This document shows, piece after piece, positions 6,509 through 23,884 of a stretch of 64,000 nt of DNA; position 1 is the first letter of the stretch, and each line of letters starts with the position of its first letter. Position numbers and translations under genes: made by a program. This DNA comes from Paludibacterium purpuratum. GTDB lineage: Bacteria > Pseudomonadota > Gammaproteobacteria > Burkholderiales > Chromobacteriaceae. The notes under the pieces were generated by a model. It searched no databases and was not told the DNA's origin. It saw only the letters and a list, made by a program, of their open reading frames with translations. The DNA lies in the NCBI RefSeq assembly GCF_004363805.1, contig NZ_SNZP01000001.1, forward strand, positions 62,001-126,000, read 5' to 3'.

Positions 6509-6746
6509 GGTATCGATCCCGAATGGAAAAATGAATCGATTGTAGGCATTCGACCCAGGCAAGGCAATCTAATGTCTTGTCATTAAGTAAGTAAATTCCT
6601 AAGTTTGAGAAATTTCCCGAATCATAATAAAAAGACATAACATCTGAGTGAGGTAAATAATGATGTACGTGTATACTTCACGCAAAGATGATCGACATAA
6701 TTTCCCATCCAGGTTTTTCTTGATGATTTGGACGGACTGAGATCGC

Positions 6747-9551
6747 ATGACAACGTCGAACGCTAAAGCCGGTTTTGCTGCCGTACTTTCGTTGCGCACT
6801 GTATTTCTGATTGCGGTCCTGTTGGGTGTGCTGATTCCCGCCATGCTGAGCGGCGCATTGACGCTGAATCTGCAACGCGAAGCGGCCACCACGGATCTCT
6901 CCACCGATCAGCGGCGCGTACTGGACATCCTTGCGCTTGGCATGCAGGAGCCCTTGTGGAACCTCAGCCGGCAATCGGGCGCACCGCTTATCGAATCGGT
7001 GATGGACGACCCGCGCGTGGTGTCGATCCGCGTCACCGATACCCAATCGAACACCGTCTTCCTCTCGGCGTTGCGCAGCGAGCGACGCATCGGTTCGGTC
7101 TCCGTGCTGCAAAAGCCGGTGATCTACCGCGGCGAGGAAATCGGTCAGGTCACCATCGAATTCGATACCGAGCATCTGGCCAATCAGCTCAAGAGCGATC
7201 TACAGCGCATGCTGGGGACGTTGCTGGCGCAGATCGTGTTCTCGATGCTGTTGATCATGGCGATCCTGCACTCGCGCTTCCTGCGCCCCATCCGCGAACT
7301 GACGCACCAAGCCACCCAACTGGCCGAGCTCAAGCTGGACAGCCACTTCCTCTGGGAGCGTAGCGATGAGATCGGCCGTCTGGGGCGCCACCTCGAATGG
7401 ACCCGCTCCGAACTCAAACGCCTGTTCGACGAATTGCGCGCCAAGACCATCGCCCTGGAAGCGGACATCGCCCGCCGGCGCGAGATGGAAGAAGCGCTGC
7501 GCCGCTCGGAAAACAAATACCGCGAACTGTTTTGGTCCAATCTGGACGGCATCGTCATCAGTTCGCTCGACGGCCAGGTGATCGATGCCAATCCGGCCTT
7601 CCTCAATCTGATGTGCTACAACCTGGATCAGCTCAAGCTGCAAAACTTCTGGTCGTTGGTGGCGCAAGAGAGCGAGGCGCTGGAGCATTTCAACCTGGAC
7701 AACAAGGTGTTGCGCTTCGGTTACTGCGACGAGTTCGAGGCCACCTACCTGAACCGTTTCGGCAATGCGGTGCCGGTCAGTGTCAAGACGGTGGCGATGC
7801 GCGATTCGATGGGGCGCATCAACGCGGTATGGCGCATGGTGCGCGACATCTCGGAACGCCGCAGTGCCGAGGAGCGTATGCAACTGGCGGCCAAGGTGTT
7901 CGAAAACACCACCGAAGGCATCATGATCACCGACACCGACCTGCGCATCCGCATCGTCAACCGCGCCTTCAGCGATATCACCGGCTATAGCCAGCAGGAG
8001 GTGCTGGGCCAAAAACCGAGCATCCTATCCTCCGGGCGCCACGACGCGGCCTTCTATGCCCAGATGTGGCAGCAACTGGGCAGTCAGGGCTTCTGGCAGG
8101 GCGAAGTCTGGAACCGGCGCAAGAACGGCGAGATTTATCCCGAGTGGCTGGCGATCAATGTGGTCAAGAGTCCGCTGGGCGAATTGACACACTATGTGGC
8201 GATTTTCAGCGACCAGACAGAGCGTCGCGCCGCCGACGAGCGCATCCAATTCCTGGCGCATTTCGATGTCCTGACCAATCTGCCCAACCGCGCGCTGATG
8301 CAGGATCGTACCGAGCTTGCCATTGCCGCAGCCTCCCGCGACAACCTCCATCTAGCCTTGTTGTTGCTGGATCTCGATCGCTTCAAGACCATCAACGAGT
8401 CGTTGGGGCACTCGGCGGGCGACACGCTGCTGCAGGTGGCCGCCGACCGTATCAAGTCGGTGCTGGCGCCAGGGCAGATGGTGGCGCGCCAAGGCGGCGA
8501 CGAGTTCATCATCATGCTGCCGGCGATCGGCGACCCGAGCGAGGCCGCGATGGTTGCCGAACGCATCATCCATGCCTTCGCCCCGTCGGTCGATCTGCAT
8601 AACCATTCGATCAGCATCACGCCGTCGATCGGCATCAGCATCTATCCGGAGGATGGACGCGATTTCGATATGCTGGTGCGCAATGCCGACGCGGCGATGT
8701 ATCACGCCAAGTCGTTCGGTCGCAATAGCTTCAAGTTTTATACCGCCGACCTCAACGCCCGCGCGCACGAAATTCTGGCGATCGAGAGTCAGTTGCGTTT
8801 TGCGTTGGATCGCAACGAATTTCTGCTGCACTACCAGCCACAAGTCGATATGCGTACCGGGCGCATCGTCGGCGCCGAGGCGTTGATTCGCTGGAATCAT
8901 GCCGCACTCGGCCTGCTCGGACCGAATCGTTTCATCGATGTTGCCGAGGAACGCGGGTTCATCGTGCAATTGGGTAACTGGGTGATTCGCGAAGCCTGCC
9001 GTCAATTGGCTGCCTGGAATGCCGCCGGATTGCCGGAAATTTCGCTGGCGATCAATCTGTCGGCGCTACAGTTCCGCCAGGCCGACCTGGTGGCGACCCT
9101 GGAGCGGGCGGTGTCCGCCAACGGCCTGCCGGGCCGGGCGCTGGACATCGAAGTGACCGAGAGCGTGGTGATGGAAGATGTCGAGGCGACCGTGCAGACG
9201 ATCGGCGCCATCAAACGCATGGGCATGCAACTCTCTATCGACGATTTCGGTACCGGTTATTCCAGCCTGTCTTACCTCAAGCGTTTCAAGGCCGACAAGT
9301 TGAAGATCGACCGCTCCTTTGTGCAGGATATCCCGGGCGACAGCGACGACAGTGAAATCGCCAAGGCGGTGATCAACATCGCGCAGACACTGAATATGAA
9401 AGTGGTGGCCGAAGGGGTGGAAACCATCGAACAGTGGCAGTTCCTGCTGGCAGAAGGGTGCGACTTGGTGCAGGGCTACCTGCTGGCCAAGCCGATGCCG
9501 GCGGCCGAGTTCGCCCAGTTGCTGAGCCAGGGGGTGCTGCTGCCGGCGTAG
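6747..9551 (+). CDS. Membrane PAS-PAS-GGDEF-EAL cyclic-di-GMP signalling protein
   Basis: This 934-residue protein has a TM segment (about 16-41), a periplasmic sensor region, a second TM (about 155-178), a HAMP-like linker, two PAS domains (about 255-365 and 380-500), a GGDEF domain and an EAL domain. The cyclase motif is intact (GGDEF at 583-587). The EAL domain keeps EAL-type Glu711 (AEALIRW), the NLSALQF block, DDFGTGYSSL and AEGVET, so phosphodiesterase activity is plausible. The net direction (c-di-GMP synthesis or breakdown) cannot be read from sequence. It converges on the minus-strand cyclase gene 17 bp downstream. Confidence 0.93.
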   Translation: MTTSNAKAGFAAVLSLRTVFLIAVLLGVLIPAMLSGALTLNLQREAATTDLSTDQRRVLDILALGMQEPLWNLSRQSGAPLIESVMDDPRVVSIRVTDTQSNTVFLSALRSERRIGSVSVLQKPVIYRGEEIGQVTIEFDTEHLANQLKSDLQRMLGTLLAQIVFSMLLIMAILHSRFLRPIRELTHQATQLAELKLDSHFLWERSDEIGRLGRHLEWTRSELKRLFDELRAKTIALEADIARRREMEEALRRSENKYRELFWSNLDGIVISSLDGQVIDANPAFLNLMCYNLDQLKLQNFWSLVAQESEALEHFNLDNKVLRFGYCDEFEATYLNRFGNAVPVSVKTVAMRDSMGRINAVWRMVRDISERRSAEERMQLAAKVFENTTEGIMITDTDLRIRIVNRAFSDITGYSQQEVLGQKPSILSSGRHDAAFYAQMWQQLGSQGFWQGEVWNRRKNGEIYPEWLAINVVKSPLGELTHYVAIFSDQTERRAADERIQFLAHFDVLTNLPNRALMQDRTELAIAAASRDNLHLALLLLDLDRFKTINESLGHSAGDTLLQVAADRIKSVLAPGQMVARQGGDEFIIMLPAIGDPSEAAMVAERIIHAFAPSVDLHNHSISITPSIGISIYPEDGRDFDMLVRNADAAMYHAKSFGRNSFKFYTADLNARAHEILAIESQLRFALDRNEFLLHYQPQVDMRTGRIVGAEALIRWNHAALGLLGPNRFIDVAEERGFIVQLGNWVIREACRQLAAWNAAGLPEISLAINLSALQFRQADLVATLERAVSANGLPGRALDIEVTESVVMEDVEATVQTIGAIKRMGMQLSIDDFGTGYSSLSYLKRFKADKLKIDRSFVQDIPGDSDDSEIAKAVINIAQTLNMKVVAEGVETIEQWQFLLAEGCDLVQGYLLAKPMPAAEFAQLLSQGVLLPA

Positions 9552-9567
9552 AGGCCTTGGGCGCTCG

Positions 9568-10893
9568 TCAGACAACCTCTACGCGGTTGCGCCCGAGATC
9601 CTTGGCGCGGTACAGCGCCTCGTCGGTGCGGGCGAGTACTTGATCCGGGTTTTTATCGTCTGCCCGCAGTTCGGTCATGCCCAGGCTGATGCTGAAGCAG
9701 ATCTGCTGGTCGCCGATCTGCAGCGGGTGTTCGGCGACCCATACACGCAATTGTTCGCCCAATTCGCGGGCGCCGGCCAGTGCCGTATCCGGCATCAGGA
9801 TGGCAAATTCCTCTCCCCCCAATCTTCCCAACAGATCGGTTGCCCGCAGTCGTTGCAGGCAGGTCTGGCTGAAATACCGCAGCACAGCGTCGCCGCTACT
9901 GTGACCCCAGCGGTCGTTGATGAGCTTGAAGTGATCGAAGTCGAGCATCAGGCAGCAGGCCGGCGTGCCATAGCGCCGCACCCGGGCCAGTTCTTGTTGC
10001 ATGCGTTCCAGGAACGGGCGGCGATTGGCGACACCGGTGAGCGGATCGGTATTGGCCAGCCGCAGCAGTTCTTCTTCGATGCGTAGGGTTTCCGTGATGT
10101 CGTTGATGTGAGCGACGAAATACAGCGGCACTCCCTGCGGGTCGCGTACCAGCGAGATGGCGACGCGACAGTGCAGGAAGTGGCCGGCTTTGTGCAGGTA
10201 GCGTTTCTCGATTTCGCCATGCGGTAAATCGTTTCGCAGGATTTTCCGGATCAGGGCCATGACGCGTGCGCGATCTTGCGGATGGGTGATGCTTTCGATG
10301 CTGCGGCCTTCCAGCTCGGGGTGCTGGTAGCCGAACAATTGGCTGCCATGGGGATTGATGCGCAAGATGTTGCCGCCGATGTCGATCATCGCCATGCCGA
10401 CAGTGGCCTGTTCGAAAGCCAGACGGAAGCGTTCTTCGCTCGCCCACAGCAATTGTTCCGCCGCCTTGCGCGCAGTGATGTCGGTGGCGATCAGTCCGGT
10501 GGCGTACAGCGTGCCGAGGAAATCGTGGATCGGAAATTTGACCGATAGGAAATGCCGCGTTTGGCCGTCTACCTGCACGATTTCCTCGATGGTCAGTGCC
10601 ATGTTGTCGTGCTGAACGCGCAGATCGTTGGCACGAAACTGCGCGGCGGTGTCTGCCGGGAACAGCTCGGCGTCGGTGCGGCCGAGGTAGTGCTCCTGCG
10701 GCAAATGGAATAGCTGGCTGTATTTGGTATTGACATAGAGGTAGCGCCCAGCCAGATCCTTGACGCCCACAACATTGTTGGAGTTGTCGGCAATGGCCCG
10801 AAACAACGCAGCCTGTTGGTCGGCATTGAGTGTCTGTGTCGTTTGACTCTTCGGTGGCGGCATGTCCGGATGTCTCTGGGAGGCATTATCCAT
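9568..10893 (-). CDS. PAS-PAS-GGDEF diguanylate cyclase
   Basis: The 441-residue soluble protein carries two PAS domains (about 25-140 and 150-270, with PAC-like ends such as FVAHINDITE) and a GGDEF domain whose catalytic motif is GGEEF (RLGGEEFAILMPDT), an active variant in known cyclases. No transmembrane segment is seen, so it senses a cytosolic or redox/ligand cue through PAS. It lies 28 bp downstream of the receiver-HPt gene on the same strand and is probably cotranscribed with it, which would link phosphotransfer to c-di-GMP output. Confidence 0.92.
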   Translation of the reverse strand: MDNASQRHPDMPPPKSQTTQTLNADQQAALFRAIADNSNNVVGVKDLAGRYLYVNTKYSQLFHLPQEHYLGRTDAELFPADTAAQFRANDLRVQHDNMALTIEEIVQVDGQTRHFLSVKFPIHDFLGTLYATGLIATDITARKAAEQLLWASEERFRLAFEQATVGMAMIDIGGNILRINPHGSQLFGYQHPELEGRSIESITHPQDRARVMALIRKILRNDLPHGEIEKRYLHKAGHFLHCRVAISLVRDPQGVPLYFVAHINDITETLRIEEELLRLANTDPLTGVANRRPFLERMQQELARVRRYGTPACCLMLDFDHFKLINDRWGHSSGDAVLRYFSQTCLQRLRATDLLGRLGGEEFAILMPDTALAGARELGEQLRVWVAEHPLQIGDQQICFSISLGMTELRADDKNPDQVLARTDEALYRAKDLGRNRVEVV

Positions 10894-11898: not shown

Positions 11899-13581
11899 TC
11901 AGCCAAGCGCCAGAGCGTTGGTCAGGTCCCCCGGGCCGTGCGTACCTAGGGCCGCGAAGGCCTCGTCGCGAATCCGGATGCCTTCGAGTTTAGGCAGGCC
12001 ATGTACTCGGGTGATCAGGCGCAAGATCGAGGTCGTGTCGTAGAAGGTATGGTCGACATGCCCCTTGCGCGCGAACGGCGAGACGACGATGGCCGGAATA
12101 CGCGAGCCAGGGCCGAAGCGGTCGCCTTTCGGCGGCGCCACATGATCCCACCAGCCACCGTTCTCGTCGTAGGTAATCACGACCACCATATGTTTCCACT
12201 GCGGGCTCTTCTTCAGGTAAGCCAGCACGTTGGCGACGTGGCGGTCGCCGGATTCGACATCCGAGTAGCCGGCATGCAGGTTGAGGTTGCCCTGTGGTTT
12301 GTAGAACGATACCGGCGGCAATTTCCCCGCTTCGATATCGGCCAGGAAGTGGTTGGAGATCGGGCTGTCGCCCAGGCCGGCGTCGCGCAGGTGTTTGGCG
12401 CGCTCGGCGGTGCCCGGGGCAAAGCGTTCGAAGTAGTTGAACGGTTGATGATGGTACTGGAAGTTCGGTGCGTCGGCACCGCCCTTGCCATCCAGCGCAG
12501 CTTGCCAGGCGCCGCTGTACCAGGCCCAGTCGACACCCTGGCGCGACAGCAAATCGCCGATGGTATCGTGGGTTTGCGGCGGCAGGGTGCTGGGATTCTG
12601 TGGATCGGCCCGTAGCGGATCTCCGCCAGCGGCCGGCGGAATGTAGCTTGGCTGGAAGGGCGGCGCCATGGTGTTGACGGCGTAGCCATCCGGCGAGATG
12701 GCGCCATTGTTGACGTACTTGGGCTGCCCGTTCAGCGCCGAGGCCGGGCAGTCGGCCGCCAGTTTCAGCTGCGTGCCTGTCGGGCCGTCATCCAGTACCG
12801 CGATCTTGCTTTTGGCCGGGCTGTTCTCGGCATTGGGGTAGAACGGCGCGCGGGCGCAGGCCAGGAATTGGTGGTTGAGGAACGAACCGCCGAAGGCTGC
12901 CATGAAGAAGTTATCGCACAGGGTGTATTCCTGGGCGATTTGCCATTGGTTGAGATGCTTGGCGGTTTCGGCGTAGTAGCCCATCGGCAAGGCGCCCGAG
13001 TCGGCCCAGGCGACAAAGCCATCATTTTTGCCGCCGTTGATCTGTCGCTGGTTCTGGTAGAACAAGTGCCACAGATCGCGGGTGATGACGGCTTCCGGCA
13101 GGAGTTTGCCTTCGGCATCCTTGAGCGGGAACGGCGCGTTGGCAAGCCCGGTGATCTTGTCCTCGCCGATCATGTAGTACTTGCCGGCGACTGTCTGCCC
13201 CTTTTGAACCAGGCCGCCCCAGATCTTCGGCAAGGTGGCGAGCGGGGTGACGCCGTCGCGATCCTTTTGGCGGTAGCTTTCGGGCGGTACGGCCGATAGC
13301 GGATGGCGCACACCGGGGAAGTTGCCGAACAGATTGTTGAAACTGCGGTTTTCCAGGTAGATGACGACGATGTTTTTGACGTGCGCTTTGAGCTGTTTGT
13401 CGAGCGCGCCGCCGGTCAGATGCAGGGGAGTGGCGCTGGGCGCGGCCTCGGCGCCTTGCGGCCAGACACCTGGCATGACGCTGGCTACGCCAAGCGCGGC
13501 GGCGGCTTCGAACAGTTTGCGTCGCGACGGATCGACGGGCTGTTCGGTGGACGGGGCTTGATCTTCTGACTTCGATGTCAT
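11899..13581 (-). CDS. Tat-exported phosphoesterase, phospholipase C / acid phosphatase family
   Basis: The 560-residue product begins with a twin-arginine signal (SRRKLFEAAAALGVASVM, Arg20-Arg21), so a folded enzyme is exported to the periplasm or beyond. The catalytic-core start VVIYLENRSFNNLFGNF is typical of the phosphoesterase family that includes bacterial non-haemolytic phospholipases C and AcpA-type acid phosphatases; further conserved blocks include ITYDENGGWWDHVAPP and RIPAIVVSPFARKG. The exact substrate (phospholipid, phosphate ester or nucleotide) cannot be decided from sequence. It is a single-gene unit with its own terminator. Confidence 0.88.
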   Translation of the reverse strand: MTSKSEDQAPSTEQPVDPSRRKLFEAAAALGVASVMPGVWPQGAEAAPSATPLHLTGGALDKQLKAHVKNIVVIYLENRSFNNLFGNFPGVRHPLSAVPPESYRQKDRDGVTPLATLPKIWGGLVQKGQTVAGKYYMIGEDKITGLANAPFPLKDAEGKLLPEAVITRDLWHLFYQNQRQINGGKNDGFVAWADSGALPMGYYAETAKHLNQWQIAQEYTLCDNFFMAAFGGSFLNHQFLACARAPFYPNAENSPAKSKIAVLDDGPTGTQLKLAADCPASALNGQPKYVNNGAISPDGYAVNTMAPPFQPSYIPPAAGGDPLRADPQNPSTLPPQTHDTIGDLLSRQGVDWAWYSGAWQAALDGKGGADAPNFQYHHQPFNYFERFAPGTAERAKHLRDAGLGDSPISNHFLADIEAGKLPPVSFYKPQGNLNLHAGYSDVESGDRHVANVLAYLKKSPQWKHMVVVITYDENGGWWDHVAPPKGDRFGPGSRIPAIVVSPFARKGHVDHTFYDTTSILRLITRVHGLPKLEGIRIRDEAFAALGTHGPGDLTNALALG

Positions 13582-13879
13582 TGCATGGACTCCGCGTTTA
13601 CCAAGTTGGCAATTGTGTGATTATGCCACTCCACTATTAAATAGTCCCATGGCAAGTAATTTGAAATAATTGGCAAAAGTTTAATTCGCTTTGATTACAG
13701 TAATCTGTACACGCGGTGCTTGTGGTATTTGAGCCAATGCTAAATCTTTCGGGAAGGCCGGCTTGGACGCAACGGAGGGGGCCGGCCGAGAATCCGGGCG
13801 GCGGATTTATGCGGTTTTTATATTGAAGTTTCTATGATGATCTGGTCGCTGCTTTATGCGGCATGATCAGGAGAAGGCC
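13582..13879. other. Non-coding region between the phospholipase gene and a small ORF
   Basis: An AT-rich stretch that should hold the phospholipase promoter on the minus strand and that of the small ORF on the plus strand. A 7-bp GC stem (GGCCGGC at 13756-13762 with GCCGGCC at 13791-13797) encloses a 28-nt loop. No convincing Pho-box or known operator was seen. Confidence 0.4.
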
Positions 13880-14077
13880 ATGGGCCTTTATATTCATTTG
13901 CTCAATCACACGATGCAGGACAAACGGCCATCGGTGTCGGATGAAGTTCCGGCGAACGCCTGGGCGCTTCGTCAACGTATCCTGCTGGCGCGTTATCTGG
14001 CGTTTACCCGTCCAAGGCGTGTGGGGCTTCTCCGATGGTGGCGCGAGCGATTCCGCCAGGTGTTGGCGGCGAAGTGA
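13880..14077 (+). CDS. Small basic protein of unknown function
   Basis: A 65-residue ORF beginning MGLYIHLLNHTMQ. Support for expression is a strong AGGAG Shine-Dalgarno 6-7 nt before ATG 13880 and an intrinsic terminator 25 bp after the stop. The C-terminal half is highly basic and rich in Arg/Trp (RPRRVGLLRWWRERFRQV) and could form an amphipathic helix. No family is recognised and no signal peptide is visible. It sits 350 bp upstream of the RiPP cassette on the same strand but is separated from it by the terminator, so a functional link is unproven. Confidence 0.6.
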   Translation: MGLYIHLLNHTMQDKRPSVSDEVPANAWALRQRILLARYLAFTRPRRVGLLRWWRERFRQVLAAK

Positions 14078-14102
14078 GGAGGGTAGTTTCATTGACGCTT
14101 GG

Positions 14103-14123
14103 GCCCCGTTCGGGGCTTTTTTT
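14103..14123 (+). terminator. Intrinsic terminator
   Basis: GC stem GCCCCG / CGGGGC followed by a run of seven T (14117-14123). It closes the small ORF ending at 14077 and insulates the cassette downstream. Confidence 0.8.
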
Positions 14124-14430
14124 ATGGCATTCATTCCCCAGTTGGAGCGGCTGTTGGGTGGATTCGTCGGAGGCAATCCACCAGGCCATCGCACGTTAAG
14201 TGCGATGCTTCGCGACCGCACCCTATCGCCGTGCCTACATGGTCAGGTTCGTTGTTATGGGCTGTCGTATAAATATATGTTTTTAGTATTGTTTTTTGAT
14301 TTTTGCTACTGGTAAAGCGATACGGTTTGCATGGTTTGCCGCACATAATTTTTTGACATAGTGTTTGAGAACCGTTCTCGCTTGGACGGTTTCCCTCCAC
14401 GTTGTTTTCTTGTGATAAAGGGTTCTCATC
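14124..14430 (+). promoter_or_regulatory. Upstream region of the RiPP cassette with a TTGACA box and perfect palindrome
   Basis: The 307 bp before the precursor gene are markedly AT-rich. A consensus -35-like TTGACA lies at 14353-14358, immediately followed by a perfect dyad GAGAAC-C-GTTCTC (14367-14379) placed where a promoter would be occluded. A smaller stem ATCGCAC-N5-GTGCGAT is at 14188-14206. No good -10 hexamer 17 bp from the TTGACA was found, so the promoter assignment is weak; the palindrome is directly visible. Confidence 0.45.
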
Positions 14431-14640
14431 ATGACAACCAAACCCGCAGTGGATCTCACCAATGCCAGCAATGAAGATCTGAAGCAAATCCACAACGCAG
14501 TGCTGCAACAACTGACGACACGCGCCATGAATCCGGCCACGCTGGCGGATGGTTACGATCGACACGGTAGCGGGCACTCTCGCTCCGGCGGCAACCCGAC
14601 GATTCAGCAGCAGGTCACCAACGTCGCGCGCGGAGGCTGA
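14431..14640 (+). CDS. Putative RiPP precursor peptide (69 residues)
   Basis: A short gene directly ahead of a radical SAM/SPASM enzyme. The N-terminal ~38 residues look like a helical leader (VDLTNASNEDLKQIHNAVLQ); the rest is Gly/Ser/His/Arg-rich with a likely core around residues 41-55 (GYDRHGSGHSRSGG), then a polar tail ending in RGG. Tyr42, His45 and His49 are the only aromatic/imidazole side chains of that segment and are candidates for ring-to-beta-carbon cyclophane links, with Asp43, Arg44, Ser47 or Arg51 as partners or hydroxylation sites. AGGG lies about 8 nt before ATG. The 3' end carries the GGAGG ribosome binding site of the next gene. Core boundaries and modifications are inference. 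Confidence 0.75.
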   Translation: MTTKPAVDLTNASNEDLKQIHNAVLQQLTTRAMNPATLADGYDRHGSGHSRSGGNPTIQQQVTNVARGG

Positions 14641-14643
14641 ATC

Positions 14644-15825
14644 GTGAACGCCATGGCTCGGGGGGGCTCTCCGGCGCTGGACTGGATCGTGCTGAAGGTC
14701 GCACAGCGTTGCAATCTCAACTGCACCTATTGTTATGTATACAACCGTGGCGACGACTCGTGGAAGTCGCGTCCGGCGCTCATTTCCGATGTCGTGGTCG
14801 CCAAACTGGCCGAACGCATTGTCGCGCATTGCGCACAGTACGGGCTGGACGCTTTCGTGGTGGAGTTGCATGGCGGCGAGCCTCTGCTTCTGGGCAAAAA
14901 GCGCATGCAACGGCTGATCGACATGTTGCGCCAGCGCTGCGCGCCGGTCAGGTTGCGGCTGATCCTACAGACCAACGGCTTGTTGCTGGATCCGGAATGG
15001 CTTGAGCTGTTCGACCGCAATGGCATCTCTTTCGGTATCAGCCTGGATGGTCCGCCGGAAGTGGCCGACCGCTTTCGCATCATGCGCAACGGGCAGGGGT
15101 CGACGCAGAAGCTGCTGGATAAGATTCGCGCTCTGCGTGCCGCCGGACCGGATTTCAACCGGCTGATGGGCAGTATCCTGTGCGTGGTCAATCCCGACCT
15201 CGATGGCGGCAAGCTAGTGCACTGGTTCGTCGACAACGGCTTCGATGCTTTCGAGTTTCTGCTGCCGGACGGCAATTACGTCAACTACCCGCAAGGATGG
15301 CGCGGCGTCGAACCGTACCGGCGCTTTTTGCTGGAAGCGTTCGAAGCTTGGTATGCCATGGGGAGCGCGGCACCGCAAATTCGTCTGTTCGAGATGATGA
15401 TGATGGGCTTCATGGGCATCAAGTCGCCGCTGGATGCGCTGGGCGGCGATCTGCGCCGGCTGTGCGTGGTCGAATCGGATGGTTCGATCGGCGTCAGCGA
15501 TGTGGTGCGCATCTGCCGGGGCGAGTACGCCAACGACAAGTTGGACATCTTCCAGCATCCGCTCGATCTGCATGCCTCGGTTTACCGCTTGGCGCAAATC
15601 CAGCAGCCCTGCGCACAATGCCAAGCCTGTCCGCATTTCGCCAGTTGCGGCGGCGGTTACTTGCCGCATCGCTTCGATGGCGCCGGGTTCGACCACCCGT
15701 CGATTTACTGCCACGCTTTGTATGCCCTGTCCGAACGCATGCTCTCGGTCATCCGCCGGGATCTGCCGCCGACGCTGCTCAGCGATCCGACCACTAGCCT
15801 TTGGACAGCCAGTCTGGCTGAATGA
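14644..15825 (+). CDS. Radical SAM/SPASM peptide-modifying enzyme (FxsB-like)
   Basis: The 393-residue protein carries the radical SAM cluster motif CNLNCTYC (Cys23, Cys27, Cys30) near its N-terminus and a C-terminal Cys-rich auxiliary-cluster region (PCAQCQACPHFASCGGG, later PSIYC). The CGGG...HR...GF..PS.YC tail resembles FxsB-type maturases, which in studied members form three-residue cyclophanes on ribosomal peptides. GTG 14644 is chosen as start because GGAGG sits 7 nt upstream; ATG 14653 is too far. The gene begins 3 nt after the precursor stop and overlaps the next gene by 4 bp (ATGA), so the three are translated as a unit. Confidence 0.88.
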   Translation: MNAMARGGSPALDWIVLKVAQRCNLNCTYCYVYNRGDDSWKSRPALISDVVVAKLAERIVAHCAQYGLDAFVVELHGGEPLLLGKKRMQRLIDMLRQRCAPVRLRLILQTNGLLLDPEWLELFDRNGISFGISLDGPPEVADRFRIMRNGQGSTQKLLDKIRALRAAGPDFNRLMGSILCVVNPDLDGGKLVHWFVDNGFDAFEFLLPDGNYVNYPQGWRGVEPYRRFLLEAFEAWYAMGSAAPQIRLFEMMMMGFMGIKSPLDALGGDLRRLCVVESDGSIGVSDVVRICRGEYANDKLDIFQHPLDLHASVYRLAQIQQPCAQCQACPHFASCGGGYLPHRFDGAGFDHPSIYCHALYALSERMLSVIRRDLPPTLLSDPTTSLWTASLAE

Positions 15826-17039
15826 CTATGCACAATGATGCGATCGATCCCCGTTATCGTCAGTTCGCCTGCCCGAAAATCGCTTTCGATCCGGTGCTAT
15901 TCGAAGCGGTGGTGTTATTTCATGCCCAGGCGGTGGTGGACATGTTCCTGCAACGCCGTGCGGCACTGCTGGCGGAAAGAAGCGTTGGTGTGATTCCCCT
16001 GATCGAGCGCTGGCGGCAGCGTTCGCAGTGCGGCAGTCTGGATGCCGGCCTGGCATGGGATATGGCATTCGGCCGTGTGCAGTGGGCGCTGGAGACCGAT
16101 GAGGTCGATGCGGGGGATGTGGCGCTGCACCTCGCCTTGCACCTGACTTCCCATGGCCTCCCCGGCGATTGGCGCGGCAGCTTGAGTGAAGCGGGTATGA
16201 TGCGCTGGGGAAACTGGCTGCTGCCGGTGGAAGGGGAGGTTTCGGTTGTGAGCGACGGCGGGCAGGCGAGCGTATCGTTTGTCGATTTTGCGCGCGGGGC
16301 GCCGAGCACGCTGAGTTTTTACGCCGACGAGCACGGCTGGCAATGCGATCAGCCCGAAGCGTTGCTGCGAGTGGGGATCCATCAGTCGATCCTGCTGCTG
16401 CCGGAGTTTGCCATTCGCGGCCAACTGACCTTGGAGGATCAGTTCGGCAGCATTGTCGGCTATCCCGAACCCGATGCCGGCATGGCCGACACGCTGGCGC
16501 GCGCACTCGACTTGCTTGCCCGTTATGCACCGGATTATCTGATCTGGGTCGAGCGGGTGATTCGCGGCGCGGTGATTTGCCAATGCAAGGAAACCCGCAC
16601 GCGCAGCAGCACTTGGTCCGAAGCGCCTGGCATCATCCTGTTGTCGCATACAACGGATGTGGCGACGATGGCCGAGATGCTGGTTCATGAGGCGTCGCAC
16701 CAGTACTACCATGTCGTTGGGCGCGTCGGACGAGTCGACGACGGTAGCGACCGTCAGCTTTATTATTCGCCGGCCGTCGCGCGCGAGCGGCCATTGGCGC
16801 GGGTACTGATCGCGTATCATGCGTTCGCCAATATCCTATTGATGTACCGCGACTTCCGTCAGAACGGTTTGGCCATGACGGGGACGACGGGATGGTGGCA
16901 TACCGCGGAACGGATGGAAGCCGATGTCGGCGTATTGGCTGCGCCGCTTTGCGACAATCCGGCGCTCACCGCCTACGGGCGTGCGCTATTCGAGCCGTTA
17001 CACCAACGCGTCCACGCCGTGGCGGCCATCGATGGTTAA
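15822..17039 (+). CDS. HExxH-motif putative peptide-modification protein 1 (aKG-HExxH peptide beta-hydroxylase-like)
   Basis: This 405-residue protein has a single metal-binding HExxH motif, HEASH at residues 289-293 (EMLVHEASHQYY), followed by YYSPAVARERPLARVLIAYHAFANI. This layout matches HEXXH proteins encoded beside, or fused to, FxsB-type radical SAM enzymes; members of that family have been described as alpha-ketoglutarate-dependent peptide beta-hydroxylases rather than proteases. No signal peptide or TM segment is seen. Its ATG overlaps the radical SAM stop by 4 bp. It shares domain order with the downstream protein, suggesting duplication. Catalysis and target residue are inferred from family and context. 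Confidence 0.8.
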   Translation: MTMHNDAIDPRYRQFACPKIAFDPVLFEAVVLFHAQAVVDMFLQRRAALLAERSVGVIPLIERWRQRSQCGSLDAGLAWDMAFGRVQWALETDEVDAGDVALHLALHLTSHGLPGDWRGSLSEAGMMRWGNWLLPVEGEVSVVSDGGQASVSFVDFARGAPSTLSFYADEHGWQCDQPEALLRVGIHQSILLLPEFAIRGQLTLEDQFGSIVGYPEPDAGMADTLARALDLLARYAPDYLIWVERVIRGAVICQCKETRTRSSTWSEAPGIILLSHTTDVATMAEMLVHEASHQYYHVVGRVGRVDDGSDRQLYYSPAVARERPLARVLIAYHAFANILLMYRDFRQNGLAMTGTTGWWHTAERMEADVGVLAAPLCDNPALTAYGRALFEPLHQRVHAVAAIDG

Positions 17040-18099
17040 TGCTCTGGCCGGCGAAGCGCCGACGACGGTGGCACTGGAGCATTTACTTCATCTGCTGGCA
17101 TGGGAGGCGCCGCCGCAAGCATGGCGCCCTTGGCAGGCGGCCTATGACGTGTTTTTGTGGCAGCGTGTCCAGTATTTATGTGAACAAAGCGTCGACGACG
17201 GCTGCATCTTCCAGGCGCTGCAAGCATTGTCCCCGGCGCGCTGCCAGCGTTTCTTACGCACACCGCAGGTCGCACGATTACTTTATCGGCACGACGACAA
17301 CGAGGACGTTTGGCGAGGCGGCACACGCTTGGCCGGTTTCTTGCTCGAAGAGTTGGGCGATTTGGACACCGCCGCTTGCGACTCGGCCGTGTTGCCTTGC
17401 GCGCGCCGCGTCACCTTGCTAGCTGACGCACTGGCTCTGGATCTGGATGGCAGGCAAACCTTTCCGGACGAAGACGGTCAGTGGCGCACGGTCTGCCATG
17501 CCTCTCCGGAGCGCGAAGCGGTACTGGACCAGCTCAGCGATGCGATGGCGGCATTGCAGCATCTGTCGCCGTCGTTGGCGGCCTTGGTGACGACTTGCAT
17601 CGAGGTGCTGGCACTGCGCTGCGAACCCGAAACGCCGCGCGGGCTATTTTCCAGTACCTTCAGTCACTACGTCGGCCTGGTGCGTATCACCAATGCACAT
17701 CTTGCCGAGGCGGATGCTCCCGCCTTGATGGATGCCTTGGTTCACGAGGCGATTCACTGCCTACTCTATCGCTACGAAGAGTCCTGCGCGCCTTTTCAGT
17801 CTGCTCGAGCGTGGACGGTAACGATCCAATCGCCATGGACGGGCGCGACCATCGCGTTGCCGTCTTATTTGCAGGCATGCATGGTGTGGTACGGCTTGTT
17901 CCACTTGTGGCGCCTTGCCGCCGTCAGCGGCTTCGGGCCGGCGCCGCGGGTGGCGCAGCTCGCAGAGCGCGCGCGCGTGGGGTTTTGCCACCGGCCGGTC
18001 TCCGAGGGGCTTATCGCACACCGTGGGTGGATCGCGCCGGCCTATCTGGATCTGCTATTGGCCGCCGAGGCTCGTATGTTGGCCGAACCCCCGGGATAG
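17032..18099 (+). CDS. HExxH-motif putative peptide-modification protein 2
   Basis: From ATG 17032, which overlaps the previous stop by 8 bp, the product is 355 residues; a longer reading from 16924 would run deep into the preceding gene. The motif HEAIH is at residues 238-242 (ALVHEAIHCLLYRYEE), followed by a region (SPWTGATIALPSYLQACMVWYGLFHL) that parallels protein 1. Similarity to protein 1 is clear in layout but low in sequence, so the two may act on different residues of the single precursor, or form a hetero-oligomer. It is the last gene of the cassette. Confidence 0.75.
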   Translation: MVNALAGEAPTTVALEHLLHLLAWEAPPQAWRPWQAAYDVFLWQRVQYLCEQSVDDGCIFQALQALSPARCQRFLRTPQVARLLYRHDDNEDVWRGGTRLAGFLLEELGDLDTAACDSAVLPCARRVTLLADALALDLDGRQTFPDEDGQWRTVCHASPEREAVLDQLSDAMAALQHLSPSLAALVTTCIEVLALRCEPETPRGLFSSTFSHYVGLVRITNAHLAEADAPALMDALVHEAIHCLLYRYEESCAPFQSARAWTVTIQSPWTGATIALPSYLQACMVWYGLFHLWRLAAVSGFGPAPRVAQLAERARVGFCHRPVSEGLIAHRGWIAPAYLDLLLAAEARMLAEPPG

Positions 18100-18143
18100 C
18101 ATCGGATCGCCGGTTGTCCACGCGAGGTTCGCCACGGACAAAA

Positions 18144-18175
18144 AAAACCGCGCAACCCTTGGGTTGCGCGGTTTT
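18144..18175. terminator. Bidirectional terminator between the RiPP cassette and lysS
   Basis: Near-loopless 15-bp inverted repeat (AAAACCGCGCAACCC / GGGTTGCGCGGTTTT) with an A run on the left and T run on the right, placed between convergent genes. Confidence 0.9.
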
Positions 18176-18202
18176 GTGCTCTCGTAGGCTTGCGTCGAGG
18201 TA

Positions 18203-19705
18203 TTACTCGGGGCGCATGTGCGGGAAGAGGATGACGTCGCGGATCGAGGCCGAGTCGGTCAGTAGCATGACCAGACGGTCGATGCCGATACCGCAACCGC
18301 CGGTCGGCGCCAGGCCGTATTCCAGCGCGCGCACGTAGTCGGCGTCGTAATGCATGGCTTCGTCGTCGCCGCTTTCCATCTGCTTGACCTGTTGCATGAA
18401 GCGATCGGCCTGGTCTTCCGGGTCGTTCAACTCGGAGTAACCGTTGGCCAGTTCGCGACCCACGCAGAACAGCTCGAAGCGTTCGGTGATGCCTTGGTGT
18501 TTATCCGAGGCGCGCGCCAAGGGCGACACTTCCACCGGGTAGTCGATGATGAAGGTCGGATTCCACAGTTGGCCTTCGGCGCACTCTTCGAACAGTGCCA
18601 GGTGCAGGCTACCCAAGCCCTTGGCCGGCGGTAGCTTGCCGCCGAGGCGCTGGATCTCCGCGGCCACCCACGCGGCATCGTTCAGCTGCGCGTCGGTGTA
18701 CTGCGGGTTGTACTTCTTGATTGCCTGCACGATGGTCAGCCGGTCGAAGTTCGACAGGTCGACGGTTTTTCCCTGGTACGGAATCTGCAACGAACCGCAG
18801 ACACGCATGGCGCCGTCCTGGATGATCCTTTCGGTCAATTCCATCATGCGATGGTAATCCGAATAGGCCTCGTAGAACTCCATCATGGTGAACTCGGGGT
18901 TGTGGCGAGTGCTCATCCCCTCGTTGCGGAAGTTGCGGTTGATTTCGAACACGCGTTCGAAGCCGCCGACCACCAGCCGCTTCAGATACAGTTCCGGCGC
19001 GATACGCAGGAACAGCGGCATGTCGAGCGCGTTGTGGTGCGTCTTGAACGGACGCGCCGAAGCGCCACCCGGGATCGGGTGCATCATCGGGGTTTCCACT
19101 TCCAGGTAGCGTTCGCCGATCATCACCTGGCGGATGCCTTGGATGATTTGCGAGCGCTTCATGAAGACGCTACGCGACTCTTCGTGCATCACCAGGTCGA
19201 CATAGCGCTGGCGGTATTTCTGCTCTTGGTCGGCCAGGCCGTGGAACTTGTCCGGCAGCGGGCGGATGGCCTTCGACAACAGACGCACTTCGCTTGCGCG
19301 CACGGTCAGCTCGCCGGTCTTGGTGATGAACAGCGTGCCCTTGACCCCGAGGATGTCGCCCATATCCCAACGCTTGAAGTCGTCGTAGGCTTCGGCCGGG
19401 ATGTCGTCGCTGGCGACGAAGATCTGGATCGCGCCGGTGAAATCCTGCAGCGTGGCGAACGAAGCCTTGCCCATGACACGTTTAAGCATCATACGACCAG
19501 CGACGGCGACCTCGATCTTTTCGGCTTCCAGCGCGTCACCCGGTTTACCGGCGTATTTATCCTGCAGATCTTTGGCAAACGCATTGCGTTTGTAATCGTT
19601 CGGATAAGCGACGCCTTTTTCGCGGATGGCTTTCAGCTTCAGGCGGCGCTCCGCCATGATTTGGTTTTCGTCCTGAATCGCAGATGTTTGTTCGTGTTCA
19701 GACAT
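18203..19705 (-). CDS. lysS: Lysyl-tRNA synthetase (class II)
   Basis: The 500-residue class II synthetase charges tRNA-Lys. An N-terminal OB-fold anticodon-binding domain (about 60-170) is followed by the catalytic domain with motif 2 [23 protein letters not shown] and motif 3 [20 protein letters not shown]. Start [14 protein letters not shown] is in frame with a long charged N-terminal helix typical of LysS. It follows prfB on the same strand with a 107-bp gap, the same order as in E. coli. Confidence 0.97.
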
Positions 19706-19791
19706 AAAAGCTCCATTAGCTACTGAATGGGGAAACCGTCGTCGGCGCGCGTGGGGTAGTGTGCGTCGGGCAGCGGGTTTCCCTTACTACG

Positions 19792-19810
19792 GCCGGGGAC
19801 CATCCCCGGC
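19792..19810 (-). other. GC hairpin between prfB and lysS
   Basis: 8-bp stem GCCGGGGA / TCCCCGGC beginning 2 nt after the prfB stop. No T run follows on the minus strand, so it looks like an RNA-processing or partial attenuation element rather than a full terminator. Confidence 0.45.
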
Positions 19811-19812
19811 TT

Positions 19813-20920
19813 TTAAACGCCTTGCTTCAGGCTGGCCTCGATGAAATCGTCGAGGTCGCCGTCCATCACGGCTTTGATGTTGCCGACTTCATGGCCAGTA
19901 CGCAGATCTTTGATACGAGACTGGTCGAAAACGTAGGAGCGAATTTGATGCCCCCAGCCCACGTCGGTTTTACTGTCTTCGAGTGCCTGCTTGGCGGCAT
20001 TGCGCTTTTTAAGCTCAAGCTCATATAGCTTGGCACGCAGCATCTGCATGGCTTCGTCGCGGTTGCGATGCTGAGATCGGTCGTTCTGACACTGTACCAC
20101 AATGCCCGTTGGGTTGTGGGTAATACGAACCGCGGAGTCGGTTTTGTTGATGTGCTGACCGCCCGCGCCGGAAGCGCGGTAGGTATCGATTCTGAGATCG
20201 GCCGGATTGATGTCGATTTCGATCGAGTCGTCGACCTCGGGGTAGACGAATACCGACGAGAACGATGTGTGCCGGCGGGCATTGGAATCGAAGGGCGAAA
20301 CACGAACCAAACGGTGCACGCCGACCTCGGTGCGCAACAGGCCGTAGGCGTAGTCGCCCTCGATCTTCAGCGTTGCGCTGGTAATGCCTGCGACTTCGCC
20401 TTCGGACTCTTCCAGTACGTCGACCTTGAAACCCTTGCGCTCGGCGTAGCGGGTGTACATGCGCAGCAGCATGCCGGCCCAGTCCTGCGCCTCGGTGCCG
20501 CCCGCGCCGGCCTGGATGTCGAGGAAGCAGGGGCGCGGATCCATCGGGTCGTTGAACATGCGGCGGAATTCGAGTTGCGCCAGGCGTGTCTCGATGTCGA
20601 CCAGGTCGGCCTGTACGGCCAGAACGGTGTCGTCGTCGCCTTCGTCGCGCGCCATGTCGAACAGGTCACGGCTGTCGCCGATGCCGGCGTCGAGCGACTC
20701 CAGCGTGACGACGACGTCTTCAAGTTGCTTGCGTTCGCGGCCCAAGTCCTGGGCGCGTTTGGGATCGTTCCAGACTTCCGGATCTTCGGTCAGGCGAACC
20801 ACTTCTTCCAGCCGGTCTTTTTTACCAGCGTAGTCAAAGATACCCCCGAATATCGGTCAATCGGCTGGCCAGGTCCTCCATTTGGGCGGCGATCTGGTTC
20901 AGTACCTCGGCTTCGATCAT
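19813..20920 (-). CDS. prfB: Peptide chain release factor 2 (programmed +1 frameshift)
   Basis: RF2 reads UGA and UAA stop codons and triggers peptide release. The gene is split: codons 1-28 run from ATG 20920 to 20837, then an in-frame TGA at 20836-20834; shifting +1 to GAC at 20835 joins the 340-residue remainder, giving 368 residues (E. coli 365). The stop-recognition tripeptide SPF ([10 protein letters not shown]) and the catalytic GGQ ([11 protein letters not shown]) are present. Annotation of only the second frame would drop the N-terminus. Confidence 0.95.
20833..20848 (-). promoter_or_regulatory. prfB programmed frameshift site
   Basis: Minus-strand CGGGGGTATCTTTGAC: an internal Shine-Dalgarno-like G run, slippery CTT and UGA followed by C, the classical RF2 autoregulatory element. 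Low RF2 lets the ribosome pause at UGA and slip forward to make more RF2. Confidence 0.95.
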
Positions 20921-21036
20921 GTCTACTACTCCAAAAAAATATCGAGAAAAACCTAGGAGCGCGTGCTCCTCATGTTGAGGTTTCGCTGGCGCGGCGTCCT
21001 TTTAACAAATCGGTCGGCAGGCCTTGGCTGCAAATG

Positions 21037-21063
21037 CAAAGCGCACCCGAGGGGTGCGCTTTG
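21037..21063 (-). terminator. Hairpin/terminator after mdh
   Basis: 12-bp stem CAAAGCGCACCC / GGGTGCGCTTTG, 38 nt past the mdh stop on the minus strand. The T tract is short (TTT), so strength is uncertain. Confidence 0.65.
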
Positions 21064-21100
21064 GTCGGCTGCCGCTACGTCAGGCAGACGGATGGAGCGT

Positions 21101-22081
21101 TCAGCCCAGCAGGGGAAGAATCGCTGCGCGTTCTTCTTCCAGTTCGTTCTGGGTCAGGGTCATCCGTTCGCGGCTGAATTCGTCAATGGCAAGACCTTGC
21201 ACGATCTTGTAGTCGCCATTCTCGCACACCACCGGGAAACCGTACATCAGGCCTTCCGGGATGCCGTAGGAACCGTCGGACGGTATGCCCATGGTCACCC
21301 ATTCGCCGTTGGTGCCATGCCACCAGTCGTGGATGTGGTCGATGGCGGCGTTGGCGGCCGATGCGGCGGAGGACAGACCGCGTGCTTCGATGATGGCGGC
21401 GCCGCGTTTGCCCACGGTCGGCAGGAACACGTCGCGGTTCCAGGCTTCGTCGTTGATCAGGCTCTTGACGTTCTGACCGTCGATGGTGGCGAAGCGGTAG
21501 TCGGCGTACATGGTCGGCGAGTGGTTGCCCCATACCGCCAATTGGCGGATGGCGGCCACCGGCTTGCCGGCCTTGGCGGCGATCTGCGACAGCGCCCGGT
21601 TGTGGTCAAGACGCAACATTGCGGTGAATTGACGTGGATTCAGATCCGGCGCGCTCTTCATGGCGATGTAGGCGTTGGTGTTGGCCGGGTTGCCGACCAC
21701 CAGCACCTTCACTTTGCGGTCGGCATGGTCGTTCAGCGCCTTGCCCTGCACGGTGAAGATGGCGCCGTTGGCTTCGAGCAGATCCTTGCGTTCCATGCCC
21801 TTCGAGCGCGGGCGGGCGCCGACCAGGATGGCGACCTGGGCATCCTTGAACGCCACGTTCGGGTCGTCGGTGGCGACCATGCCGGCCAACAGCGGGAAGG
21901 CGCAGTCTTCCAATTCCATCATTACGCCCTTAACCGCGGTTTGCGCTTGCGGGAGGTCGAGCAGTTGCAGGATGACAGGCTGATCTTTGCCGAGCATTTC
22001 GCCGCTGGCGATGCGGAACAGCAGGCTGTAACCGATCTGGCCGGCAGCGCCGGTTACGGCTACACGTACGGGGGCTTTCAT
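21101..22081 (-). CDS. mdh: Malate dehydrogenase (NAD-dependent)
   Basis: Oxidises malate to oxaloacetate in the TCA cycle. From ATG 22081 the product is 326 residues, as usual for proteobacterial cytosolic-type Mdh; AAGGAGA lies about 8 nt upstream. The longer in-frame reading to 22309 is non-coding leader. The Rossmann motif [20 protein letters not shown] and the catalytic region with [15 protein letters not shown] (active-site His) are intact. It diverges from the GntR gene that leads into the sdh-suc block, so all TCA genes of the window cluster around one regulatory interval. Confidence 0.96.
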
Positions 22082-22212
22082 ATGACTGACTCTCCTTTTG
22101 TTGTGTCCGTTTTGTTGCTGCGATTGCGTCAGGATGACTGAGTGTAGCACGCAGAATTCGCGATGTGTTTGGAAATGTCCTACTTTGGTAAATGTCTTTG
22201 TCTGAAACTTAT

Positions 22213-22233
22213 GTCTTATATAAGACTGGTCTT
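22213..22233. promoter_or_regulatory. Overlapping palindromes between mdh and the GntR gene
   Basis: A perfect 14-bp palindrome GTCTTATATAAGAC (22213-22226) overlaps a second dyad AAGAC-TG-GTCTT (22222-22233). They lie in the divergent interval and are good candidates for the operator of the adjacent HutC-type GntR regulator. Confidence 0.5.
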
Positions 22234-22267
22234 TACGCTTGATTTGTTTGGTGATAAAAAGACGGGG

Positions 22268-22999
22268 ATGATGAGAAACACGCTGCGGCGTCTGCCGCTT
22301 TATGCACAAATCAAGTCGGTTTTGATCCGGCGTATCGTCGATGGCGAATGGCAGGCCAATCAGGCGCTGCCCAGCGAGTGGGAGCTCGCGGCCGAGCTCG
22401 ATGTCAGCCAGGGCACCGTGCGCAAGGCGCTGGGCGAGTTGGTGACGCAGGGCGTGCTGTACCGGCGCCAGGGGCGCGGTACTTTCGTGGCCGAGGTGGC
22501 CAGCGACTGGGGTGCGGGCTATCTGGTGACGCCGGGGCTATTGAACGAAAAGCCGGACGAGCTGGTGCTGGAGCTTTTGGGCTGTTCGCGCGGCAATGCG
22601 CCGGACGAGGTGGCCCAGGTGCTGGGGCTCAGACGCGGCGCGCCGGTGATCCGGGTTCGGCAGTTGTGGCGGCTCTCCGGTCTGGCGGTGGCGCTTGACG
22701 ATGCCTATCTGCCGGCCGAGCCGTTCGACGGCCTGGATGCGCGCTCGATCCGCCAATGTGGCGGCGGCGTTTATGTGACGCTGCAGCGGCGTTTCGGCGT
22801 GCGGCTCCGCGTGACGGGCGAGCAACTGCGTGCGGTCATGCTCGGGCGCGAGGACGCGGCCATGCTGGGCGTGGCGCCCGACCAGCCGGTGCTGTCGCAG
22901 TTGCGGGTGTCGGCGACCATGGAGGGCGAGCCGTTGGAGTGGCGGCAGCGGATTTGTCTGACCGATTCGCTCGCTTTTACCACTGGCCGGCAGCCATGA
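22268..22999 (+). CDS. GntR-family regulator, HutC/UTRA type
   Basis: The 243-residue protein (from ATG 22268; ATG 22271 also possible) has a winged HTH ([19 protein letters not shown]... [15 protein letters not shown]) and a C-terminal UTRA effector domain (about 85-240). The longer reading to 22163 is AT-rich and unconserved in character. Position between divergent mdh and the sdhC start suggests it regulates the TCA block, with the palindromes at 22213-22233 as sites; the effector is unknown. A 172-bp gap separates it from sdhC. Confidence 0.88.
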
Positions 23000-23171
23000 T
23001 TCGGACGGCAAGCGTCCGCTTTTGATAGAATTCATCGGTCATATTCCGGTTTCGACCGGTGTATGGCCAAGCACGAAGCCAGAGTCGACCGCACAACAAG
23101 AGTCGACGGCTCGGGCGGTCCCGCAGGTCGGGAACCGTCGATATATATTGCTCAACAAAGTGGAAAACCAA

Positions 23172-23546
23172 ATGCAGAAGCAAAGACCCAAGCATCTGGA
23201 CCTGGCCAAAATCAGGCTTCCGGTGCCCGGCATTGTCTCGATCTTGCATCGGGTCAGCGGCGTGGCGCTGTTCCTGTTCTTGCCGGTCCTGATTTACCTC
23301 CTCCAGGGTTCGCTGAGCTCGGCCGAATCCTTCGATGCCTTCCGTTCCGTCATCGCCCATCCGCTCGTCAAGCTGGTTCTGATCGGCGTGCTATGGGCAT
23401 TTCTGCATCACGCGATGGCGGGCATTCGTTTCCTGTTTCTCGATATGCACAAGGGGCTCGAACTGGCCACCGCGCGCGCGACCGCTAAGACCGTGCTGGT
23501 CGTCAGCCTGGTGCTGACCTTGATCCTGGGGGTGGCGGTATGGTGA
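23172..23546 (+). CDS. sdhC: Succinate dehydrogenase cytochrome b556 subunit
   Basis: The 124-residue membrane anchor begins MQKQRPKHLDLAKIRLPVPGIVSILHRVSG, containing the conserved SILHRxSG quinone/heme region, and has three hydrophobic helices with the heme-ligand-type His in LHHAMAG. Start 23172 is chosen because the upstream in-frame ORF (from 23022) is unrelated to the family; an in-frame GTG at 23160 is an alternative. It overlaps sdhD by 7 bp. Confidence 0.93.
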   Translation: MQKQRPKHLDLAKIRLPVPGIVSILHRVSGVALFLFLPVLIYLLQGSLSSAESFDAFRSVIAHPLVKLVLIGVLWAFLHHAMAGIRFLFLDMHKGLELATARATAKTVLVVSLVLTLILGVAVW

Positions 23547-23884
23547 ATCGTATTGTTGTCGGAGCCCACTACGGCTTGCGCGACTGGCTGGTCCAGCGCG
23601 CCACCGCCGTGATCATGTTGGCCTATACCCTGGCGCTGGTGTTGTTCCTGCTGGTGATGCCGTCGGGTTTTGCCGGCTGGAAGGCGTTGTTCGCTTGTTC
23701 CTGGGTGCGTCTCTTGACCCAGGTCACGTTGCTGGCGCTCTTGCTGCATGCCTGGGTGGGCGTGCGCGATATCTGGATGGACTATGTCAAACCGGTCGGC
23801 GTGCGCCTTGTGCTGCATGTGCTGACCATTCTGTGGCTGGTGTCCTGTTTCATCTATTCCGTTAAGGTAGTCTGGGGGCTGTAA
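23540..23884 (+). CDS. sdhD: Succinate dehydrogenase membrane anchor subunit
   Basis: A 114-residue, three-helix protein starting MVNRIVVGAHYGLRDWLVQRATAV, with the conserved Trp/Arg and the heme-side HAWVGVRDIWMDYVKP segment. With SdhC it anchors the SdhAB catalytic dimer in the inner membrane and forms the ubiquinone site. Overlaps sdhC by 7 bp and sdhA by 1 bp. Confidence 0.93.
   Translation: MVNRIVVGAHYGLRDWLVQRATAVIMLAYTLALVLFLLVMPSGFAGWKALFACSWVRLLTQVTLLALLLHAWVGVRDIWMDYVKPVGVRLVLHVLTILWLVSCFIYSVKVVWGL

Follow-up and report, generated by a model that had tools for sequence, protein, structure and literature searches.

This study examined a 64,000-nucleotide stretch of the genome of Paludibacterium purpuratum (contig NZ_SNZP01000001.1; hereafter the window), in which four consecutive genes on the plus strand form a compact cassette of the type that makes ribosomally synthesised and post-translationally modified peptides (RiPPs). 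Gene A (14431–14640) encodes a precursor peptide of 69 aa and ends in TGA; gene B (14644–15825), encoding a radical S-adenosylmethionine (SAM) peptide maturase of 393 aa with the motif C23-x3-C27-x2-C30, starts with GTG after a gap of 3 nt, and GGAGG lies ahead of this start within the 3′ end of A. Gene C (15822–17039; 405 aa) overlaps B by 4 nt (ATGA), and gene D (17032–18099; 355 aa) overlaps C by 8 nt (ATGGTTAA). Both encode HExxH proteins of the alpha-ketoglutarate (aKG)-HExxH type, with HEASH at residues 289–293 of C and HEAIH at residues 238–242 of D. The program-called open reading frame (ORF) for D opens upstream, at 16924; the likely translation start is the coupled ATG at 17032, which is the better fit. 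An earlier note on this DNA, made from the letters alone, had described a 69-codon gene, a CxxxCxxC gene 3 nt on, and two HExxH genes with 4- and 8-bp overlaps, and this layout was confirmed.

Gene A is a genuine gene under purifying selection and not a chance ORF, since most of its codon changes relative to the copy in L009, a Paludibacterium sp. metagenome-assembled genome labelled Chromobacteriaceae in the tree, are synonymous: 26 synonymous and 9 non-synonymous changes were counted in 69 codons, with non-synonymous (dN) and synonymous (dS) divergences of 0.066 and 1.14, respectively. The corresponding dN and dS values for the enzymes were 0.09 and 0.84 (B), 0.21 and 1.23 (C), and 0.30 and 1.56 (D). 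Homologues of A were found at 11 other loci, and the window copy was aligned with ten of them (alignment A3, 11 rows; the twelfth copy, L082, was left unaligned). The earlier note would have withdrawn its reading had the precursor not been conserved at homologous loci; conservation was what we observed.

The peptide consists of a leader (about residues 1–40), the core YDRHGSGHSR (residues 42–51), and a variable C-terminal follower, ending in ARGG. The core protein is identical in the window, L009 and Collimonas (L010) despite codon differences, and the stretch LADGYDRHGSGHSRSGG also encodes the same protein as in Collimonas with different codons. Four residues are shared by all 11 aligned precursors, D8 of the leader and, within the core, H45, S47 and H49; ten of the rows have D43, and ten have Tyr or His at residue 42. 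The other cores were HDSHGSNHSN (L078–L080), YDKHTSNHLR (the Rhodococcus plasmid, L060), YDSHSSSHSK (L027), HDRHYSNHSK (L011, L081, and L082), and HASDHRSSHTN (Pantoea). Every core may be read as three (Tyr/His)-x-X3 units, namely the ring-x-X3 pattern of triceptides. Ten of the 11 rows have [YH]-x-[RKS] as the first unit, the Pantoea exception being H-x-S shifted one residue out of register; the second unit is H-x-S and the third H-x-[RKN] throughout. When the window segment was shuffled 100000 times, 55 of the shuffled sequences contained such a triple; the pattern had been defined after the core was seen.

Gene product B scored 61.7 bits against PF04055 and carries a Cys-rich C-terminal region, which we take to be SPASM-like. 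In the PDB it matched 9gm3, the radical SAM domain of ChlB, with an E-value of 5e-57; the source paper for ChlB is reportedly Morishita 2024, to which PMC12636437 and PMC13060819 refer. In the tree, B and its relatives at ten further loci form their own clade with support of 100/100, separate from a 15-row clade holding the YhhB control L022 and from a 16-row, mostly Bacteroidota group (87/76). The scores of B against the YhhB model NF041707 (295.2 bits; cut-off 445; L022, 519.4) and the FxsB model TIGR04269 (278.7 bits; cut-off 370) lie below both cut-offs, and six relatives from its clade reached 241.6–317.7 bits on the YhhB model. B is accordingly a predicted cyclophane synthase, related by sequence to YhhB, FxsB, and ChlB. 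The description "FxsB-type" holds as far as kinship with cyclophane-forming radical SAM enzymes is concerned, but not as membership: B falls short of the FxsB score and sits in its own clade, and A has no FxSxx end. Two other assignments were rejected: the HxsB/His-Xaa-Ser system (51.4 bits; cut-off 370) and viperin-type defence, for which the PADLOC pVip match (45.5 bits) covered only residues 16–139, the common radical SAM core.

The radical SAM enzyme and the ring-x-X3 motifs of its precursor together agree with the i,i+2 rule for triceptides (PMC11002830, accessible part). According to the same part of that source, YhhB forms Tyr C3 to Arg C-beta and His C2 to Arg C-beta bonds, MscB closes rings on Ser, and XncB on Arg or Asn; therefore, Arg, Ser, and Asn at X3 all have precedents, and Lys may be fitted only by analogy. 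It is possible, if doubtful, that B instead forms another cross-link or fewer than three cyclophanes, such as the Tyr-Arg ring only or a His-His link, with the invariant His and Ser residues serving metal binding or recognition. The separate, fully supported clade of B outside the YhhB group points in that direction, as does the accessible part of PMC11002830, which reports no His-x-Ser ring for YhhB. However, the nearest characterised relatives of B by sequence, YhhB and ChlB, form cyclophanes.

Concerning C and D, both passed the cut-off of 40 bits of the aKG-HExxH model TIGR04267 (83.1 and 42.2 bits, respectively) and were its sole matches in the 4.04-Mb host genome at an E-value of 0.001. 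Profiles of 30 rows matched ChlH with 1.7e-29 for C and 1.5e-29 for D; in single-sequence PDB searches, C gave no match and the best for D was unrelated (E-value, 0.74). The predicted folds of both match solved structures of the family, C appearing nearest to SjiH (PDB 22ob/22nu) and D to ChlH, and each protein would combine a ChlH-type fold with the HExxH motif. These data bear out the initial reading of the HExxH proteins as members of the aKG-dependent family and, together with the conserved precursor coupled to a relative of cyclophane-forming enzymes, that of the whole as a RiPP-type cassette. In the tree, C and D fall into separate clades, that is, two lineages, which rules out their origin by a recent tandem duplication. 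A reading in which one of C and D trims the leader as a zinc metallopeptidase, leaving a single oxygenase to act, seems improbable to us, given the family scores and predicted folds of both; still, zincin-like proteins beside FxSxx peptides have been described as peptidases cleaving them (PMC7159879, accessible part), and hydrolysis of a truncated substrate is recorded for PflC in the accessible part of its report. D-like HExxH proteins with 27–31% identity over about half of D were also noticed on the Rhizobium plasmids NZ_CP071682.1, NZ_CP050304.1, and CP007643.1, typed as conjugative.

The distribution of the two genes was surveyed within the stretches examined at 36 radical SAM loci from genome contigs, at least one HExxH gene being present in 22, none being found in 14 (including the cut-off L027), and two in 3 (L009, L010, and L025). 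Within the window clade, both C and D occur in the window, L009, and L010, C alone in L078–L080, L060, and L012 (whose tree placement is unsure), and D alone in L011, L081, and L082. Whole-genome TIGR04267 counts agree with this (two each in L009 and L010, one each in L011 and L012); for L060 the count was one in a search of the plasmid only, and presence in L078–L082 was judged from local stretches. Since C and D occur both apart and together, their distribution argues for separate tasks, and it suggests that each would be able to act without the other.

The aligned loci further link D with the residue at position 44. D is present in all five with Arg44 (the window, L009, L010, L011, and L081) and was not found in the five without it (Lys in L060, Ser in L078–L080, and an unsure register in L012), L027 being excluded from this tally since its contig ends in B, L082, which also has Arg, lying outside the alignment, and the contigs of L079 and L080 ending soon after C. 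As this amounts to about two lineages against three, we treat the association as a lead and not a result. Beyond it, we entertain, at low probability, a self-contained oxidative relay in which aKG-HExxH enzymes of two lineages act on one tri-cyclophane, each on a different ring, and in which D, seen in these loci only with Arg or Lys at X3, would do something other than plain beta-hydroxylation, for example Arg oxidation or protease-free product release by oxidative backbone cleavage.

Several further loci deserve mention. L025 (Candidatus Paracaedibacter symbiosus; 6638–10245) has the order possible precursor, C-like HExxH gene, radical SAM gene, D-like HExxH gene; this second lineage likewise encodes a C-like together with a D-like protein, its possible precursor (100 aa) contains HSKDFSK, and its radical SAM gene lies outside the window clade on a long branch. 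In L078 (7088–7792), as in L079 and L080, a gene close after C takes the place of D and could be another tailoring enzyme; the L078 copy has a weak Pfam HD match (E-value 0.015, below the cut-off). In L013 (7756–7926) and L023 (7721–7906), small ORFs that precede the radical SAM and D-type HExxH genes of Bacteroidota contain F/W-x-R repeats (FSR and WER; WSR and WSR), that is, ring-x-Arg units adjoining a D-type enzyme.

We consider it probable that the cassette produces a tri-cyclophane RiPP of the triceptide/ChlB kind, oxidised by two non-redundant aKG-HExxH enzymes. We infer the following order of events. Guided by the leader of A, to which it would bind, B would use radical chemistry to link each phenol or imidazole ring of the core to the beta-carbon two residues on; the predicted links are Tyr42-Arg44, His45-Ser47, and His49-Arg51, giving up to three cyclophanes and, for all three, a shift of −6 Da. 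The calculated mass of the untagged precursor is 7308.625 Da; three cyclophanes would change it by −6.047 Da, and one or two hydroxylations on top of them would bring the net change to +9.948 or +25.943 Da. C and D, as iron/aKG oxygenases, would then oxidise different positions of the cyclised core, each adding 16 Da, and release and export would be provided by enzymes encoded elsewhere. The HExxH domain of ChlB hydroxylates His and Asp and needs a preformed cyclophane (PMC12636437, accessible part); such residues are conserved in A (Asp43 in 10 of 11 rows, His45 and His49 in all 11), and Asp43 and the His residues would be the first candidate oxidation sites.

Several observations weigh against this proposal. 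No NCBIfam or Pfam model recognises A, and for each cyclophane family among the 25 best matches listed, B scores below the curated threshold. D exceeds the TIGR04267 cut-off by just 2.2 bits, and the relative of C in L012 and that of D in L011 fall below it. An acidic residue seven places after HExxH was found in only 1 of 9 C-type rows, compared with all 10 D-type rows and 11 of the 12 YhhA-type rows. Finally, two HExxH enzymes need not mean two hydroxylations, because backbone cleavage is also within the repertoire of such enzymes (PMC12636437, accessible part).

This last point leads to the question of release. None of the 11 neighbours scanned by Pfam is a protease or peptide exporter (genes at 18203–23883 lay outside the scan), one of them (942–2105) being an FlhB-family flagellar/type III export protein; the earlier statement that neither function is nearby is true of these neighbours, but five C39-peptidase matches lie elsewhere in the same genome. 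An unlikely alternative is that one HExxH protein hydroxylates while the other cuts the backbone oxidatively in the manner of PflC/PosC, so that product release is built into the cassette and a protease is unnecessary. The aKG-HExxH enzymes PflC/PosC hydroxylate Gln and cleave the backbone, and their cluster is without a nearby protease (PMC12636437, accessible part); the protease-free scan and the different lineages of C and D would suit such a division of labour. On the other hand, the aligned precursors have no ARMD-like conserved cleavage motif after the core, and the C-only Rhodococcus locus adjoins a caspase gene, neighbours of the other single-enzyme loci being mostly unscanned.

Compared with known systems, the proposed tri-cyclophane pathway is closest to ChlB, which also pairs a cyclophane-forming radical SAM domain, matched by B, with an aKG-HExxH oxygenase; ChlB, however, is fused with one HExxH domain, whereas here two separate HExxH proteins are encoded (the enzymes were compared, not the Chl precursor). 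The YhhA/YhhB triceptides (NF041705/NF041707) share the use of Tyr and His as ring residues and of Arg at the second position after them, and 12 of 15 loci of the YhhB clade have a stand-alone HExxH gene nearby. They differ in that B is 34% identical to the L022 YhhB, YhhA-model precursors end in YDRxHNRHNR (YDRVHNRHNR) instead of a core plus follower, and their HExxH proteins belong to other clades than C and D; A gave no match to NF041705 (cut-off 36 bits) up to an E-value of 1, while the controls L022 and L041 scored 57.3 and 59.3 bits. A PDB search with the precursor profile returned an unrelated best match (E-value, 0.13), and SjiH has an identity of just 15%. PflC/PosC, PesO, and BipH belong to the same oxygenase family by their papers, in the parts accessible, and are likewise stand-alone HExxH proteins that oxidise RiPP precursors, but their partners there are MNIO or B12 radical SAM enzymes and not a cyclophane synthase, with one aKG-HExxH enzyme per cluster.

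The cassette is rare. B was found in 2 of 150 relatives at an E-value of 1e-40, own genome counted, and at 1e-90 in 1 of 369 genomes drawn from the class, namely its own. In searches centred on other genomes, centres counted, it was found at 1e-70 in 4 of 294 relatives for Collimonas and in 3 of 301 for Mesorhizobium, and at 1e-60 in 1 of 246 for Pantoea, this one being the centre itself. Among 72,556 plasmid records, 3 matched B at 1e-50; the Rhodococcus one joins the window clade, and the remaining two, with identities of 36.3% and 31.7%, lie outside the tree sample. Next after the cassette on that plasmid (L060, 7243–8295) is a convergent caspase-family gene (Peptidase_C14, 77 bits). Viral contigs searched with C gave no match. 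The suggestion that the combination in a betaproteobacterium may be undescribed needs dividing: members also occur beyond betaproteobacteria, in the Rhodococcus plasmid, Mesorhizobium and two relatives, and Pantoea, but neither a cassette that combines stand-alone HExxH enzymes from two lineages nor the precursor family of A was found described in the open-licence literature (subscription papers being outside the scope). What is already known is the pairing of aKG-HExxH with a cyclophane synthase, fused in ChlB; in genomes, stand-alone HExxH genes are readily seen next to those for YhhB-like enzymes.

The same-genus genome G002 also carries the cassette. In the window (11899–20800) and in the same-genus stretch L059 it is flanked by a gene that we take to be lysS and by a PF04185 phosphoesterase gene, in opposite orientations, and a third genome of the genus, G003, has no credible match to A–D at the corresponding site, which is occupied by other ORFs. 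The site therefore varies between genomes, and the cassette has moved or flipped as one unit. In the comparison with L058/L059, two ORFs at the third genome's site resemble what are presumably GNAT and GGQ-motif proteins. Upstream of the flipped cassette, L059 (4441–4713) contains a perfect 25-bp inverted repeat with arms 223 nt apart, resembling a miniature inverted-repeat transposable element; it is not among the repeats listed for the window copy.

Between D and lysS lies a hairpin (18144–18175, no strand assigned), a perfect inverted repeat with a 15-bp stem, whose arms (18144–18158 and 18161–18175) are separated by 2 nt. It had been taken for a bidirectional terminator closing the cassette. 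The hairpin is present, but the terminator scan reports it on the minus strand only, in the lysS direction, and positions 18145–18175 match L059 4075–4105 at 90%, beside lysS although the cassette is inverted there; for these reasons it is probably the terminator of lysS. A sigma-70 promoter scan of 13600–18300 found none (1.6 expected). The palindrome GAGAACCGTTCTC upstream of A (14367–14379) was set aside as an operator, being missing from the corresponding place in L009; with up to two mismatches it had two matches in the window, both the same site (1.15 expected).

The aKG-HExxH family was found recently, and its reactions are not yet predictable (PMC13060819, accessible part). The C-only, D-only, and double cassettes on closely similar cores form a natural set, which makes the residue choice of each enzyme, and the question of whether ring closure comes first, testable by mixing small genes. 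The cassette could, moreover, extend the His cyclophanes to a His-x-Ser ring.

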